From Paracoccaceae bacterium (GTDB taxonomy: Bacteria > Pseudomonadota > Alphaproteobacteria > Rhodobacterales > Rhodobacteraceae), in assembly GCA_009920775.1 (NCBI GenBank), contig RFZI01000009.1, positions 1-33,209 of the forward strand: a DNA stretch of 33,209 bases, written 5' to 3'. The translations under genes and the position numbers were made by a program. Below are positions 4,099-33,208 of this stretch, in pieces. Under the pieces are notes generated by a model that did not search any database, was not told where the DNA came from, and saw only the letters and a list, made by a program, of their open reading frames with translations. Each line of letters begins with the position of its first letter. Position 1 is the stretch's first letter.

Positions 4099-4337
4099 CA
4101 TTTTTCGCCGTCGGTCTCTTGCGGCGCGTCGGGATCGGCCTTGCCCACCCCGAGAAAGACAAACCTCAGCGGGAAGGCCCAAGCCACCCCAAGAAAGATA
4201 TAGGTCGGCAGTTCAAGCCAATGCGGCAGGCGGTCCATAGACGACATGATCGTAACTGCCATGACCACATAAGCGGGCAGGCCCACGATCAGGACCAGAA
4301 GCGAAAGCCTGCGGCGGGCCTTATAGCTCAAAGCCAT
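4098..4337 (-). CDS. DUF2842 small membrane protein
   Basis: A 79-residue protein starting 'MALSYKARRRLSLLVL' with two hydrophobic segments: one at about residues 10-32, one at about 44-63 ('PTYIFLGVAWAFPLRFVFLG'). This matches the short DUF2842 inner-membrane family of alphaproteobacteria as I recall it; no function is known. I chose the ATG at 4337 over the longer frame to 4382, because the longer start would lie inside the purA coding region and add an unrelated Ser/Arg-rich stretch. The start lies 4 bases after the purA stop, so the gene is probably co-transcribed and coupled with purA. The shared terminator follows directly. Confidence 0.75.
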   Translation of the reverse strand: MALSYKARRRLSLLVLIVGLPAYVVMAVTIMSSMDRLPHWLELPTYIFLGVAWAFPLRFVFLGVGKADPDAPQETDGEK

Positions 4338-4341
4338 CGGA

Positions 4342-5634
<1,293 letters not shown>

Positions 5635-27443: not shown

Positions 27444-27612
27444 CAGCGGGTTAAACCCCGCCCCATGAGCCGTTCCCGCAGCGCGGCATCACCGGTTCTC
27501 ACTCACCTGCGAGCCACGCGGCCGTGAATTCCCTGTGTGCGGCCCCTTTCCCTAGGCTTGCGCTATCGCCGCAACCCGCGGCGCTGCTCGAAAGCCCAAG
27601 GAAAGGGAAATT

Positions 27613-27963
27613 ATGTCGAAAACCTCGAAAACCATTTTTGTCGCCTCTGCCGTCGCTACGGCCATTACCTCGCTTGCCCACACCGCCGGTGCCGCCGGTG
27701 AAGAAAAGTGCTATGGCGTTGCTCTCGCCGGCGAAAACGATTGCGCCGCGGGCCCCGGCACCACCTGTGCCGGTTCCTCCACCGTCGATTATCAGGGCAA
27801 CGCCTGGAGCCTCGTGCCCGAGGGCACCTGCGAGACAATGATGCTTCCCGATGGCCGCCACGGCGCTCTGGCTTCCGCCCTTGAGGAAGAAGGCTTCTTC
27901 GGCCTTGCCCGCGACCTTCCCGAAGGCACCGCGACCGACGGGCTCAAGCCCGTCGAAATGTAA
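27613..27963 (+). CDS. bufA: DUF2282 bufferin-type metallophore precursor (BufA1/GigP-like)
   Basis: A 116-residue small secreted protein. Residues 1 to about 28 are a Sec signal peptide ending 'HTAGAA'. The mature part has exactly four cysteines (33, 44, 52, 73) in the DUF2282 pattern: '[19 protein letters not shown]', '[13 protein letters not shown]', 'VPEGTC'. In the bufferin family a DUF692 enzyme converts core cysteines to thiooxazole-type groups that bind copper, and the product protects the periplasm from metal stress. Unusually, the C-terminus continues for ~43 residues after the last Cys with an acidic helix-rich tail. ATG 27613 has AAGGGAAA upstream. The modifying enzyme gene starts 58 bases downstream. 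The function is from family knowledge. Confidence 0.88.
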
Positions 27964-28021
27964 GCCGTCCTTATGGCCGGGGCCGGCTTTGACCGGCCCC
28001 GAACTCACAACGGAGACTCCG

Positions 28022-28876
28022 ATGTTCGATGCGAGCCCCGAGCGCGGCCTGCCCAACTTGCCCGGTGTTGGCTACAAGCCGCAGCATTTCGCTGATATCT
28101 TCACCGATCCCGCGCCGGTCGGCTGGTTTGAAATCCACGCCGAGAACTACATGGGCGATGGCGGGCGGCCTTTGGCCCAGTTGAACGCGCTGGCAAAGCG
28201 GTTTCCAATCTCGGTGCATGGCGTTGGCCTCTCCATCGGCGGCGAGGGGCGGCTTGACCGCGATCACCTTGCGCGGCTGAAGCGCCTTGTCGGTTGGCTG
28301 GAGCCTGCGAGTTTCTCCGAACACCTGGCTTGGTCGAGCCACGGGGGCGCCTATTTCAACGATCTTCTGCCGCTCCCCTATACCGAGGCCACGCTGGCCC
28401 GCGTCTGCGACCACATCGACGAAGTGCAAGAGGCGCTCGGGCGGCAGATGCTTTTGGAAAACCCCTCCTCCTATCTCGCCTTCACCGAAAGCACGATGCG
28501 CGAGACCGAGTTTTTGCGGGCCGTGTCGGACCGGACGGGTTGTGGCCTTCTTCTCGATATCAACAACGTCTTTGTATCCGCCACCAACCTGCATACCGAC
28601 CCCCGCGCCTATATCGACGCCTTCCCCTTGGACCGCGTGCAAGAGATGCACCTTGGCGGGCATGAGGCGGATCAGGATGAGGATGGCACGCTCCTCCTGA
28701 TCGACAGCCACGGCGCGCCGATGGCCGATCCGGTCTGGGCGCTTCTTGACTATACCCTCGCCCGCTCTGGCCCGCGCCCCCTGCTGATCGAGTGGGACAA
28801 TGACGTGCCCGAATGGCCTGCCTTGGCCGATGAGGCCCGCAAAGCCGCCGCCGCCCTTGAAAGGATCCCCGCATGA
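28022..28876 (+). CDS. bufB: DUF692 multinuclear non-heme iron oxidase (BufB/GigA-like)
   Basis: A 284-residue TIM-barrel enzyme of the MNIO family (MbnB, TglH, ChrH, BufB), which uses two or three iron atoms to oxidise cysteines of a precursor peptide. Candidate metal ligands are His 66 (VHGVG), Glu 100/His 101 (SEHLAW), Glu 146 (LENPSSY), Asp 179 (LLDINN), His 210 and His 214 (MHLGGHEAD), Asp 228/His 230 (DSHGA) and Glu 257 (IEWDND). The family start '[14 protein letters not shown]' is present. GGAGA precedes ATG 28022; the longer frame from 27851 overlaps the precursor and is rejected. Its stop overlaps the partner gene (ATGA), which matches BufB-BufC complexes. Confidence 0.92.
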
Positions 28877-29616
28877 GTGACGCCGCCTTCAGCGCCGCAC
28901 TTCTCGACCCCGAGCGCCCTGTGCCGGAGGGGCTCGTCACACCTGACGGCGCCCCCGCCACCCGCCGCTATGCGATCTATCGCAACAATGTCACCGTGGG
29001 CCTGACAGAGGCCTTGGAGGCGGGGTTTCCCGTGATCCGCAAGATCGTGGGCGAGCGGTTCTTTCAGGCCATGGCCGTGGTCTTTGTTCGCAACCATCCA
29101 CCAACCTCGCCGATTCTCGCGGGCTATGGGGCCGAAATGCCGGGCTTTCTGCGCGGGTTCGAACCGGTGGCGCTTCTGAAATACCTCCCCGATGTGGCGC
29201 GGCTCGAGCTGGCCCTGCGCCGCGCCTATCACGCGGGCGATGCAGCGCCGATTGCGGCGGAGGCACTTGGCGCAATCCCGCCCGACCGCCTGATGCGGGC
29301 GCGGTTCGGCTTTGCGCCGGCGGTGCAGCTGCTCTCCTCGCGCTTCCCGATCCACGACATCTGGACGTTCAACATGGCCGAAGGTGCCCCCCGCCCCAGC
29401 GGCCGCGGTCAGGACGTTCTGATCACCCGGCCCGGTCTGACACCGATCCCCACCTTGCTGGATCGGGCCGGGGCGGAATTCGTCGCGGCGCTTTTGGCGG
29501 GCAAGACCTTCGGCGCGGCCATCGCCGCCGGCGGGTCTAGCCTCGATCTTTCCGGCACTATTGGCCTCTTGCTTGGACAGGCGGCCATCACATCCATCGA
29601 CGAGGGCACCACATGA
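28873..29616 (+). CDS. bufC: DUF2063 partner protein (BufC/GigB-like)
   Basis: A 247-residue protein. The N-terminal DUF2063 domain spans about residues 1-95 and has the typical '[25 protein letters not shown]' (partly shown) and '[23 protein letters not shown]' (partly shown) segments. The C-terminal domain resembles RiPP recognition-like partner regions. In bufferin and methanobactin-like systems this protein binds the precursor and presents it to the MNIO enzyme. The ATGA overlaps at both ends (28873-28876 and 29613-29616) show tight coupling with the oxidase and the DoxX gene. Direct biochemistry of this homologue is not known to me. Confidence 0.88.
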
Positions 29617-30191
29617 CCGCACTCCTTGCTTTCTGCTCCCGTAGCGCCCTCTGGTTCGATCGCATGGCCCCCCTTGTCTTGCCGACGCTCGCGCGGTTTG
29701 TCTTTGCCGCCGTTCTACTCGTCTATTTTTGGGGCTCGGCGCTGACCAAACTGGGCGACGGCCCCTTGGGCCTCTTCCGCCCTTCTTCGGGCGCCTATGT
29801 GCAGATCTTCCCCAAGGCGATGGAGGCGGTGGGGTATGACACCTCGGCGCTCGGCCTCTGGCACTGGGCGGTTGTGGTCGCAGGCACTTCGGCGGAGTTT
29901 CTCCTGCCCGCCCTCCTCCTCATCGGCCTCTGCACCCGCCTCGCCGCCCTTGGAATGCTCGGGTTCATCGCGGTTCAAACCCTGACCGACCTCTACGGCC
30001 ACGGCGCGATCCATCAGGCGGCGACGGTGGGGGCGTGGTTTGATCGCGCCTCAGGGTCGCTCATCCTCGATCAGCGGGCGTTCTGGGTCGTGGGGCTGAT
30101 GGCGCTGGTGATGCTCGGCGGCGGGCCTTTGTCGGCCGACCGCGCCCTTAGAAATGCGCCTTGGGCTCGTCCGGCTTTCCCGCAGCGATAG
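29613..30191 (+). CDS. DoxX-family membrane protein (BufD/GigT-like)
   Basis: A 192-residue inner-membrane protein with about four hydrophobic segments ('LARFVFAAVLLVYFWGSAL' and 'AEFLLPALLLIGLCTRLAAL' among them), typical of the DoxX family. DoxX proteins accompany many DUF2282/DUF692/DUF2063 clusters (gigT in the gold-induced gig operon), perhaps linking the pathway to the quinone pool or metal handling; the mechanism is not settled. Translation is coupled to bufC by ATGA. Its 3' end overlaps the convergent minus-strand gene by 44 bases. Confidence 0.85.
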   Translation: MTALLAFCSRSALWFDRMAPLVLPTLARFVFAAVLLVYFWGSALTKLGDGPLGLFRPSSGAYVQIFPKAMEAVGYDTSALGLWHWAVVVAGTSAEFLLPALLLIGLCTRLAALGMLGFIAVQTLTDLYGHGAIHQAATVGAWFDRASGSLILDQRAFWVVGLMALVMLGGGPLSADRALRNAPWARPAFPQR

Positions 30192-30516
30192 CGAGGATGC
30201 CGCCCAGCGCGGCAAAGCCGATGGGGAACATTGTGCCCACGTTAAAGCCGAAGGCATTGTAGAAGAGGAACGCCGCCACGAGCATCAGGACGCCGCCCCA
30301 AAGCGCGCGGACCTTGGCCATGGCCCCGCCCGCCAGCGCCAGAAGCGGGCCGAAAAAGCTCGCAAACCGGATCAGCGCGGGGTTTTCGAGGAAACCGAAC
30401 GCGCGGCCCACCCCTTCGTGGGTCTCGGTCACCTCGGCATAGCCATAGCCGACGAGGCCGACGATCATGCCGATGAGGCCAGCGATGATGCCGAGGATAA
30501 GGGCTGCGTTGCGCAT
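30148..30516 (-). CDS. Small four-helix membrane protein of unknown function
   Basis: A 122-residue protein starting 'MRNAALILGIIAGLIGMIVG' with four hydrophobic segments and a short polar tail. The pattern resembles DUF4064-type membrane proteins, but I am not sure of the family. ATG 30516 is preceded by GGAGACC at a suitable distance. It lies 49 bases downstream of the ArsC-like gene on the same strand and may share its transcript. It overlaps the end of the DoxX gene by 44 bases on the other strand. Confidence 0.7.
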   Translation of the reverse strand: MRNAALILGIIAGLIGMIVGLVGYGYAEVTETHEGVGRAFGFLENPALIRFASFFGPLLALAGGAMAKVRALWGGVLMLVAAFLFYNAFGFNVGTMFPIGFAALGGILAIAAGKPDEPKAHF

Positions 30517-31460: not shown

Positions 31461-32303
31461 CTAGTCAGCCAGCCGATCAATGGCTTCGAACGCGCTATTT
31501 GTTGCCTCAAAGATCTCGCGCTTTGGACCGGTCGCTCGAAGTAGGTCAAGGCTCTCAAGCTCTTCGATAGCACCTTCCCACTTCGCAATTTCACGGCGTG
31601 AGTTGTCGTGAGTAATAGGCGTACTACCAGCTTGAAAGGTGGTTCCTCCCAAGTGTCTCAGCATCAAGACTCTTCCGTCCGCAACGATCGCCGATTGAAG
31701 CAATTTAAGCGCCGCATCACTAATCTGAACCTCTGCTGTGTCTTGCGAAATCTGAGCATCAAGATCAGACTGTGGAACATGCCCAATTCCCAATTCATCG
31801 GCGTCGTTCATTGTTAGGGCAAGGTCTTTTCGGAACAGTTCCTCAAACTCCACCAAGTCCTCGTATTCCCCGATTATGCCCTCGGCCTTGCACCATTCCT
31901 TGAATTCAATGACTCGACCGTACTGGTCGTGATCGTTGCTATTCTTTACGACCGGCTTGGTGCAAAAATAGACCATCGCCAGCTTTCCGGCCTCTACGTG
32001 TTTCTTGATTTCTTCGACCGTACCACTTTCATACTCGCCGGTCGGACTTCCGAGACGAGTCCAAAATACCCCAACCAGTAGATCACACTTCTTGAGAAGC
32101 TTTGAGTTAATGATCTCTTGCGCACGCCCCCTTAGCCTTGGAGAAGCGTGGGTTTCCCATCCCACAGGGGCAAGCACCGCTTTACGGATTTCCGAATTCA
32201 CTGCATTCCATTCGTGAAGTAGTTTGCGAACCAAACCCCGCTCTTCCTGAGCATCTCCGGGAGACGCAATCATCGTTGGAATAACAGTGGCCGAATACGG
32301 CAT
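31461..32303 (-). CDS. DUF4062/TIR-like N-domain protein with C-terminal winged-helix-like region
   Basis: A 280-residue soluble protein. Residues 1 to about 115 resemble DUF4062: 'TVIPTMIASPGDAQEERGLV', 'CDLLVGVFWTRLGSPTGEYE' and 'SGTVEEI', a Rossmann-like TIR/nucleoside-deoxyribosyltransferase fold with a Glu in the usual active position. Residues about 190-280 ('SDAALKLLQSAIVADGRVL', 'KWEGAIEELESLDLLRATG') look like a winged helix. Such domains occur in defence and signalling proteins; no function is proven. Base composition is much lower in GC than the neighbours (31/60 in 31621-31680). The start is ATG 32303, overlapping the thyX stop as TAATG; the frame to 32333 lies inside thyX. A recent gain is likely. 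Confidence 0.8.
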   Translation of the reverse strand: MPYSATVIPTMIASPGDAQEERGLVRKLLHEWNAVNSEIRKAVLAPVGWETHASPRLRGRAQEIINSKLLKKCDLLVGVFWTRLGSPTGEYESGTVEEIKKHVEAGKLAMVYFCTKPVVKNSNDHDQYGRVIEFKEWCKAEGIIGEYEDLVEFEELFRKDLALTMNDADELGIGHVPQSDLDAQISQDTAEVQISDAALKLLQSAIVADGRVLMLRHLGGTTFQAGSTPITHDNSRREIAKWEGAIEELESLDLLRATGPKREIFEATNSAFEAIDRLAD

Positions 32304-33208
32304 TACCCAATCACCCCCTCGAACTCCCGCCATTCGCCCTTGCTCATGCCGGAGGTTTCCTGAGTCACCTGCTCACCTTTGAGCATACGCCGCACGCAAT
32401 CCAAAGCCTTCCCAGAAAGTGTCGCGCCGCCCATGCGGTAGTCTTCGAAGGCGCCGTAGGCCGCGGGGACCCAGTCGGCCACGAGCCGGCAGATCTCTTC
32501 GGCGTAGACGCGGATTTCGTATTGGGCGTGGGCGTCGGCGCGTAGGCGGAGAAAGTGGAAGAGGTTGTGCAGGTCGACCTTCCAATACCACTGGGTATAG
32601 ATATTGGCCGGAAGGTTCATGCGGGCAAGCTCGCGGGCGAGGCCCTGCTGGCCCTCTTGCCCGATCATCTCCTCATAGTGGTCATAGCAGCGGGCGGCGT
32701 CGCCCTTGAGGTATTCGAGCACGCGGGCGGCCTCTTCGGCGGAGAGGGTCTCGCCGCGGCCCTGATTGTTGATGACCGATTGCGCGGCCAACTGTTCGGG
32801 CGCGGGGATATAGAACTCGCGGTCGAGGATCGAATAGCGGGCCGAGTATTCATTCACATTGGCGGTGCGGTGGCGGATCCACTGGCGGGCGACGAAGACC
32901 GGCAGCTTCACATGCAGCTTGATCTCGCACATCTCAAACGGCGTCGAATGCCAGTGGCGCATGAGATAGCGGATCAGCCCCTCGTCGTTCTGCACCGATT
33001 TGGTGCCCTTGCCATAGGACACGCGGGCGGCCTGACAGATGGCGGCATCGTCGCCCATATAGTCGATCACCCGGACAAAGCCGTGGTCGAGCACGGGATT
33101 GACCTTGTAGAGATGCGCCTCCATCCCCTCGGACACAGCCCGCAGCGTGGGGCGCGGGTTGGCCCGCAGCTCGGCGATTTCGGCCTCTTGTTCGGGGGTG
33201 ACGGGCAT
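32303..33208 (-). CDS. thyX: FAD-dependent thymidylate synthase
   Basis: A 301-residue flavoenzyme that methylates dUMP to dTMP using methylene-tetrahydrofolate, FAD and NADPH. The ThyX motif '[15 protein letters not shown]' is present around residues 117-131, with '[14 protein letters not shown]' and '[23 protein letters not shown]' (split) on either side. The length is typical of alphaproteobacterial ThyX. ATG 33208 lies at the window edge, so the upstream site cannot be judged, but '[11 protein letters not shown]' resembles family starts. Its TAA overlaps the ATG of the next gene (TAATG). Confidence 0.96.

Follow-up and report, generated by a model that had tools for sequence, protein, structure and literature searches.

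The 33,209-nucleotide stretch of DNA analysed here, from Paracoccaceae bacterium assembly GCA_009920775.1 (contig RFZI01000009.1; hereafter the window), carries at positions 27613-30191 what its gene order and protein families identify as a Buf1-type bufferin operon, bufA-bufB-bufC-doxX. The operon is of a known kind and the long tail of its precursor is a minor variant; the new element is the shared operator upstream. A Buf1 bufferin operon behind a double-palindrome operator is very probably the best explanation of the locus as a whole. In the Rhodobacteraceae, the bufferin probably stands under a putative palindrome-binding regulator with a small regulon, comprising the bufferin, a probably secreted MsrA, and an alpha/beta-hydrolase-OsmC enzyme.

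The window belongs to a 2.44 Mb draft genome that is 82.58% complete (G000), in which it lies within contig 298. Judged by BufB, two metagenome-assembled genomes (MAGs) are the closest named relatives, one from an uncultured Rhodobacteraceae bacterium (95%) and one from Marivivens (89%). The features of the locus are as follows.

27499..27512, + strand: operator unit 1, TCACTCACCTGCGA, differing from TCAC-N6-GTGA at one position (de novo motif)
27514..27527, + strand: operator unit 2, CCACGCGGCCGTGA, also with one mismatch, at 15 bp from unit 1 (de novo motif)
27553..27558, + strand: predicted -10-like TAGGCT, placed by the conserved 20-base distance from the motif end
27613..27963, + strand: bufA, predicted secreted four-Cys DUF2282 (Buf1) bufferin precursor, 116 residues (PF10048)
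27832..27960, + strand: C-terminal tail of BufA, 43 residues, with R-D-L-P at residues 100-103 (alignment)
28022..28876, + strand: bufB, multinuclear non-haem iron enzyme (MNIO), bufferin maturase, 284 residues (NF050167, PF05114, match to 3bww)
28873..29616, + strand: bufC, partner protein with DUF2063 and an RRE fold, 247 residues (PF09836, fold search)
29613..30191, + strand: doxX, DoxX-family membrane protein, 192 residues (PF07681, position shared by 77 of 80 loci)

A double palindrome upstream of bufA

A motif found de novo in 77 regions upstream of bufA, CT.ACG....CGTGA..CACG..CCCGTGA.TGG, consists of two TCAC-N6-GTGA-type palindromes 15 bp apart. In the 66 of these 77 regions with scores above 15, it begins 104-148 bp before bufA. 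Twenty bases past the motif, a CTA...T sequence conserved among 61 dereplicated upstream regions fits a -10 element. The copy in the window spans 27499-27527. A model built from 56 sites, leaving out the clade of the window, scored 14.9 at 27492 and no more than 1.6 anywhere else in the window on both strands.

A scan of 851,019 bases on both strands yielded 68 matches with a score above 14, 67 of them located 60-160 bp before bufA and the remaining one 46 bp before a bufA with a mis-called start. Counted by source (the window plus 80 loci), 66 of 81 have a score above 14 upstream of bufA. Among random windows drawn from these loci, 2 of 389 exceeded 15, with a maximum of 27.0; because the full scan has no other place above 14, these two were taken as overlaps with bufA promoters. 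When 100 whole genomes were searched with one strict pattern, 26 were hit, against none with the reversed control, and the match adjoined bufA in all 26 loci, once on the opposite strand and once between bufA and bufB. Locus L142 (1100-1900) has its operator in the bufA-bufB interval, following what looks by eye like a terminator hairpin, so that it may drive bufBC-doxX without bufA.

A second pattern matched in 37 genomes, with one control match. From these matches 30 loci were drawn, and 29 of them hold bufA and bufB; in the thirtieth (L172), and at a further place in genome G062, the pattern precedes an MsrA gene. One place (G094:C1:807517) adjoins no bufA, msrA, or osmC. Outside the family, in other families of the class, an exact single palindrome occurs in 6 of 28 bufA upstream regions, and none of these 28 regions holds the double site, for which the best score there was 6.9.

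The single palindrome upstream of msrA and osmC

Exact TCAC-N6-GTGA was found in 23 of 31 regions upstream of msrA and in 22 of 30 upstream of the gene for the alpha/beta-hydrolase-OsmC enzyme (osmC), a protein of about 403 residues with both domains detected by Pfam; with one mismatch allowed, the numbers rose to 30 of 31 and 29 of 30. The osmC regions were chosen by protein similarity, and three loci (L198, L228, and L268) had entered through a pattern match; without them, exact palindromes remain in 21 of 29 regions for each gene. Random windows contained an exact palindrome in 23 of 600 cases and one within a single mismatch in 55 of 600; random windows of the msrA loci gave 4% and 9%, respectively. 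Regions upstream of thrS contained it in 0 of 67 and 1 of 67 cases. All 77 bufA upstream regions hold the palindrome within one mismatch, only four of them exactly. Among exact matches before msrA, only the 6-base gap stands out. That MsrA is probably secreted is a by-eye reading of its N-terminus.

Across the 100 genomes, the longer pattern TCACC-N4-CGTGA-N17-TTG had 44 matches, against one for the reversed pattern; 18 lie before msrA, 20 before osmC, and 6 elsewhere. The bufA double site (36 of 100 genomes) and this longer pattern before msrA or osmC (32 of 100) share 21 genomes, with a Fisher probability of 4e-5 that ignores kinship. Loci L256 (1501) and L259 (1501) are single cases of the longer pattern before rpoH-like sigma factor and SCO1/SenC genes, and these genes are not proposed as regulon members.

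The palindrome and sigma-F-like control

As an alternative to a regulator site, the palindromes upstream could belong to a sigma-factor promoter or an RNA feature. Some relatives have NrsF and an extracytoplasmic function (ECF)-like gene beside bufA, with a palindrome near a sigma-F-like element, which speaks for this alternative. However, these sites are palindromes with a gap of 6 bases, three unrelated genes have them upstream, and -35/-10-like elements occur separately, downstream of them. Moreover, in the three NrsF genomes read closely (L321, L322, and L323; ECF-like gene assigned by eye), the palindrome, with 0, 1, and 1 mismatches, sits 19-20 bases ahead of the sigma-F-like element; about 9% of random windows contain a one-mismatch palindrome. 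Compared with GTAACC-N16-CGAA, the sigma-F sequence given in PMC3511200, the sigma-F-like elements differ at 1, 1, and 2 positions, with spacers of 16, 15, and 15. We regard this alternative as very unlikely and retain a regulator-binding operator as the preferred reading.

NrsF (PF06532) is present in 14 of 100 genomes of the family. It had no match in the genome of the window, 82.58% complete as noted, and is not adjacent to the cluster. Neither the strict bufA double site nor the longer msrA/osmC pattern was found in the 14 NrsF genomes; by hand tally, the strict double site occurs in 0 of 11 bufA genomes with NrsF versus 36 of 60 without. In the NrsF genomes, 11 msrA/osmC stretches, some with poorly placed gene starts, gave 2 exact palindromes and 5 within one mismatch. 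A clean mutual exclusion of operator and NrsF was considered and dropped, as three NrsF genomes keep one palindrome-like site. From these sequences, the palindrome may outlast a change of sigma factor.

Proteins encoded by the operon

The preliminary description of this DNA had placed four genes of these families in this order, the last three joined by ATGA overlaps, and had likened the cluster to bufferin operons. All four proteins match their Pfam families above cut-off, and inspection of the bufB/bufC and bufC/doxX junctions verified the overlaps. A match of the precursor to DUF2282, set beforehand as a test of the assignment, was obtained with 87 bits against a cut-off of 22.4 (PF10048). 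The likeness to bufferin clusters is firmer than first claimed, BufB exceeding the NCBIfam equivalog cut-off for the bufferin maturase (MNIO_BufB, NF050167; 379.6 bits, cut-off 310).

BufA has cysteines at C33, C44, C52, and C73, invariant across 83 aligned sequences. Its N-terminus, read by eye, shows K3/K6, a hydrophobic stretch, and an AGA-A site, and its sequence contains no EGKCG repeats.

BufB, whose start was chosen from a GGAG ribosome site and homology, also matches Pfam MbnB_TglH_ChrH (PF05114) with 353.8 bits (cut-off 25), and the closest solved structure by sequence is 3bww (E 2.2e-42). Iron ligands in a DUF692 alignment had been named as a further check. Of 13 metal-ligand-like positions, 12 (H66, H101, E146, N147, D179, N181, N182, H210, D228, H230, E257, and D259) show no variation in 110 rows, and the thirteenth, H214, is conserved in 108 of them; the set includes the window copy (L003) and near-identical pairs and omits the fragment L070. 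Except for N182, D228, and H230, the ligand roles are those we presume for the MNIO family. In our reading of the 3bww alignment, these three residues are the counterparts of N175, D242, and H244 of HvfB, whose replacement abolished activity (PMC13419390).

BufC matches Pfam DUF2063 (PF09836) with 89.7 bits (cut-off 27.2). A phmmer search of BufC against solved structures gave no match, and a fold search settled the question. An AlphaFold model (mean pLDDT 94.8), built from the window protein and 69 of 74 relatives after removing five with odd lengths or starts, had its best fold matches in 8hci_A and 8hi7_A, both TglHI entries, followed by NGO1945 (3dee, E 1.3e-3); MbnC (E 0.9) and a lasso RRE (E 2.4) matched more weakly. 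Chain A of 8hci and 8hi7 would be the partner TglI, since the MNIO chain is D. These matches fit the partner-protein architecture given for bufferin clusters (PMC12452194). The DoxX protein is barely above the Pfam DoxX cut-off (PF07681; 27.0 bits, cut-off 23.6).

Distribution of the operon

A precursor match was found in 212 of 295 genomes of the family, and a DUF2282 match in 100 of 289 genomes across the class. The four genes are ordered on one strand in 77 of the 80 loci found with BufB, which argues that the order is not due to chance. In a published survey, frequent neighbours of MNIO genes include DUF2282, DUF2063, DoxX, sigma, and NrsF genes (PMC12452194). By these comparisons, the window operon is one more ordinary bufferin cluster of a marine bacterium, of a sort carried by most of the sampled genomes of its family.

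Upstream of the window operon lies thrS, and downstream are a convergent open reading frame (ORF) and an ArsC-family gene. Among the BufB loci, thrS is upstream on the same strand in 71 of 80, within 400 bp in 52. The neighbouring genes of the window include no exporter or regulator gene adjoining the operon, as the preliminary description had remarked, and the 80-locus survey indicates that this is a trait of the family and not specific to the window.

The C-terminal tail of BufA

The preliminary description had singled out the long tail of the precursor. Exactly 43 residues follow C73, where it gave about 43; the tail is not unique, being a variant of one found family-wide. In 119 precursor rows (113 distinct) from loci L001-L112, of which L111 yielded none, an R/K-D-L/I/M-P/A motif follows the last cysteine in every row, and the 83-row BufA alignment shows no variation at R100 and D101. 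Tail lengths in the family form two groups, of 22-31 and 43-54 residues, and the long ones account for 4 of 82 distinct precursors of BufB-derived loci (L033, L034, L035, and L073; hand count). Relative to 22-residue tails, the window tail has RDLP in its middle, with about 9 extra residues before it and about 12 after. Long tails occur across several genera and share a common pattern, and the R-D-L-P-like motif anchors their alignment to short tails; the idea that the tail is a unique invention was therefore rejected. On a BufB tree from a quick search, 8 changes of the long-tail label are required, against a mean of 16.9 in shuffles, and well-supported branches impose a minimum of 2, so the long tail may have had one origin or several. 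Twenty-nine loci from other families of the class have tails of 11-27 residues, and 4 of them show the motif.

The long tail could instead alter the function of the bufferin by providing an extra partner, a metal site, or a follower peptide for BufC. The motif present in every family row, the invariant R100 and D101, and the shared pattern with RDLP in mid-tail would be consistent with such a role. Against it, the window tail adds no cysteine and a single histidine, and it acquires no confident structure in an AlphaFold model of BufA that is poor overall (mean pLDDT 49.7; tail block means 35-43). Short-tailed relatives have the same operon, and preliminary results reported in PMC12452194 make the signal peptide part of the recognition sequence. 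We consider a changed function unlikely and read the tail, from the alignment, as a conserved C-terminal segment whose length varies by lineage.

Buf1 precursors span 30 to 835 residues in the published survey (PMC12452194), so the 116 residues of the window BufA are inside the known size range. Shimia and close relatives (L043, L045, L048, L051, L061, and L075; about 4200-4990) have two tandem bufA genes before bufB.

Related systems and proposed mechanism

The Caulobacter Buf1 cluster CC3254-CC3257 has the same order of DUF2282, DUF692 MNIO, DUF2063, and DoxX genes as the window (PMC3511200), but the window lacks an adjacent sigF-nrsF and has the double palindromic operator upstream. The gold-induced gig operons are, like the window operon, bufferin clusters (PMC12452194), a likeness drawn from their description only. 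The hvfABCX (oxazolin) operon of Haemophilus influenzae shares with the window operon an MNIO, a DUF2063 partner, and a DoxX-like protein (PMC7907618). Its precursor is of the EGKCG type (PMC12668002), in contrast to the DUF2282 precursor of the window, and it is under ECF sigma control, whereas the window operon has a palindromic operator.

The following mechanism is proposed. BufA would be made with a Sec signal peptide, and a cytoplasmic BufB-BufC complex would oxidize the central C44 and C52 to 5-thiooxazoles, a modification for which PMC13419390 gives a loss of about 4 Da per cysteine. The modified product would be exported, the outer C33 and C73 would pair with each other, and in the periplasm the mature peptide, about 88 residues long, would bind excess copper, with DoxX working in the same envelope stress response. 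This chemistry, the export, and the copper binding are modelled on characterised relatives. Transcription would start from a promoter with the double TCAC-N6-GTGA-type operator, where one putative dimeric regulator would switch the operon on together with oxidative-damage repair. The regulator is likely an activator, because the operator sits just upstream of the -35 region; position is what suggests both activation and the regulator. The signal might be copper, hypochlorite, or peroxide. Since the palindrome also precedes msrA and the alpha/beta-hydrolase-OsmC gene in relatives, the bufferin is probably co-regulated with oxidative-damage repair, as far as these sequences indicate.

The cluster might respond to or bind another metal, such as gold, cadmium, or chromium, rather than mainly copper. 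In Caulobacter, dichromate and cadmium elicit a response of the sigma-F clusters (PMC3511200), and the gold-induced gig operons are themselves bufferin clusters, although their role against gold is so far putative (PMC12452194). Characterised bufferins, however, are reported to bind copper and to aid growth in excess copper (PMC12452194), and we hold a different main metal to be distinctly unlikely, keeping copper as the expected ligand.

Caulobacter YedY, which we take to be MsrP, is relevant to the link with sulfoxide repair. Sigma-F of Caulobacter controls two DUF2282 clusters and, partly, YedY (PMC3511200). In H. influenzae, RpoE2 controls msrAB and a DoxX/COG3220/DUF2063 cluster, which are induced by hypochlorite, and SigE of Neisseria meningitidis controls msrAB and a similar DoxX cluster (PMC7907618). 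Such co-regulation of an MNIO cluster and a sulfoxide reductase provides a precedent for the pairing under other regulators.

Several observations weigh against the proposed mechanism and regulon. Both operator units in the window carry one mismatch. Before msrA, one-mismatch reverse arrangements are also enriched (GTGA-N7-TCAC 52%, GTGA-N2-TCAC 42%, and GTGA-N9-TCAC 39%, against 5-10% in controls), so the exact site there is tentative. Genomes of the family are related, and the palindrome counts are thus not independent events. At the cut-offs used, the window's genome, incomplete as it is at 82.58%, had no msrA or osmC match, and the longer pattern with one mismatch gave 1 match there against 1 for the control and 1 against 2 in the genus mate G129; without an excess over control in this genus, only the bufA operator is shown there. 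No regulator gene was recognized by eye among the neighbours of msrA or osmC. BufC and the DoxX protein score below the NCBIfam cut-offs for HvfC (46.6 bits, cut-off 142) and HvfX (20.2 bits, cut-off 80). In Caulobacter, msrA homologues were unchanged with sigma-F, and YedY was only partly dependent on it (PMC3511200). In favour of the regulon, the longer pattern with one mismatch allowed has two matches in G163, the long-tailed sister of the window's clade in the BufB tree, one of them just before osmC, against none for the control.

If the proposed regulon is real, the bufferin would be part of an envelope response to oxidants, whether hypochlorite, peroxide, or copper-driven. Caulobacter, Haemophilus, and Neisseria would then have arrived at the pairing with sulfoxide repair by way of different regulators, and the palindrome would represent another, apparently separate, route to it. 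The operator predicts that marine roseobacters use bufferin in oxidative-damage repair, beyond metal chelation, and it outweighs the operon in importance, offering a concrete DNA target for finding the stress sensor. A link between bufferins and methionine sulfoxide reductase was not found in the open-access papers searched; subscription journals were mostly outside this scope, and the link may be in print there.

Other genes in the window

The ORF convergent with doxX (30148-30516, - strand; 122 residues) overlaps the 3' end of doxX by 44 bases; it matches no Pfam family above cut-off, and a similar sequence is present in 35 of 80 loci. Further downstream, a 290-residue protein (31461-32333, - strand) with a sub-threshold match to DUF4062 adjoins a Thy1 (thyX) gene.

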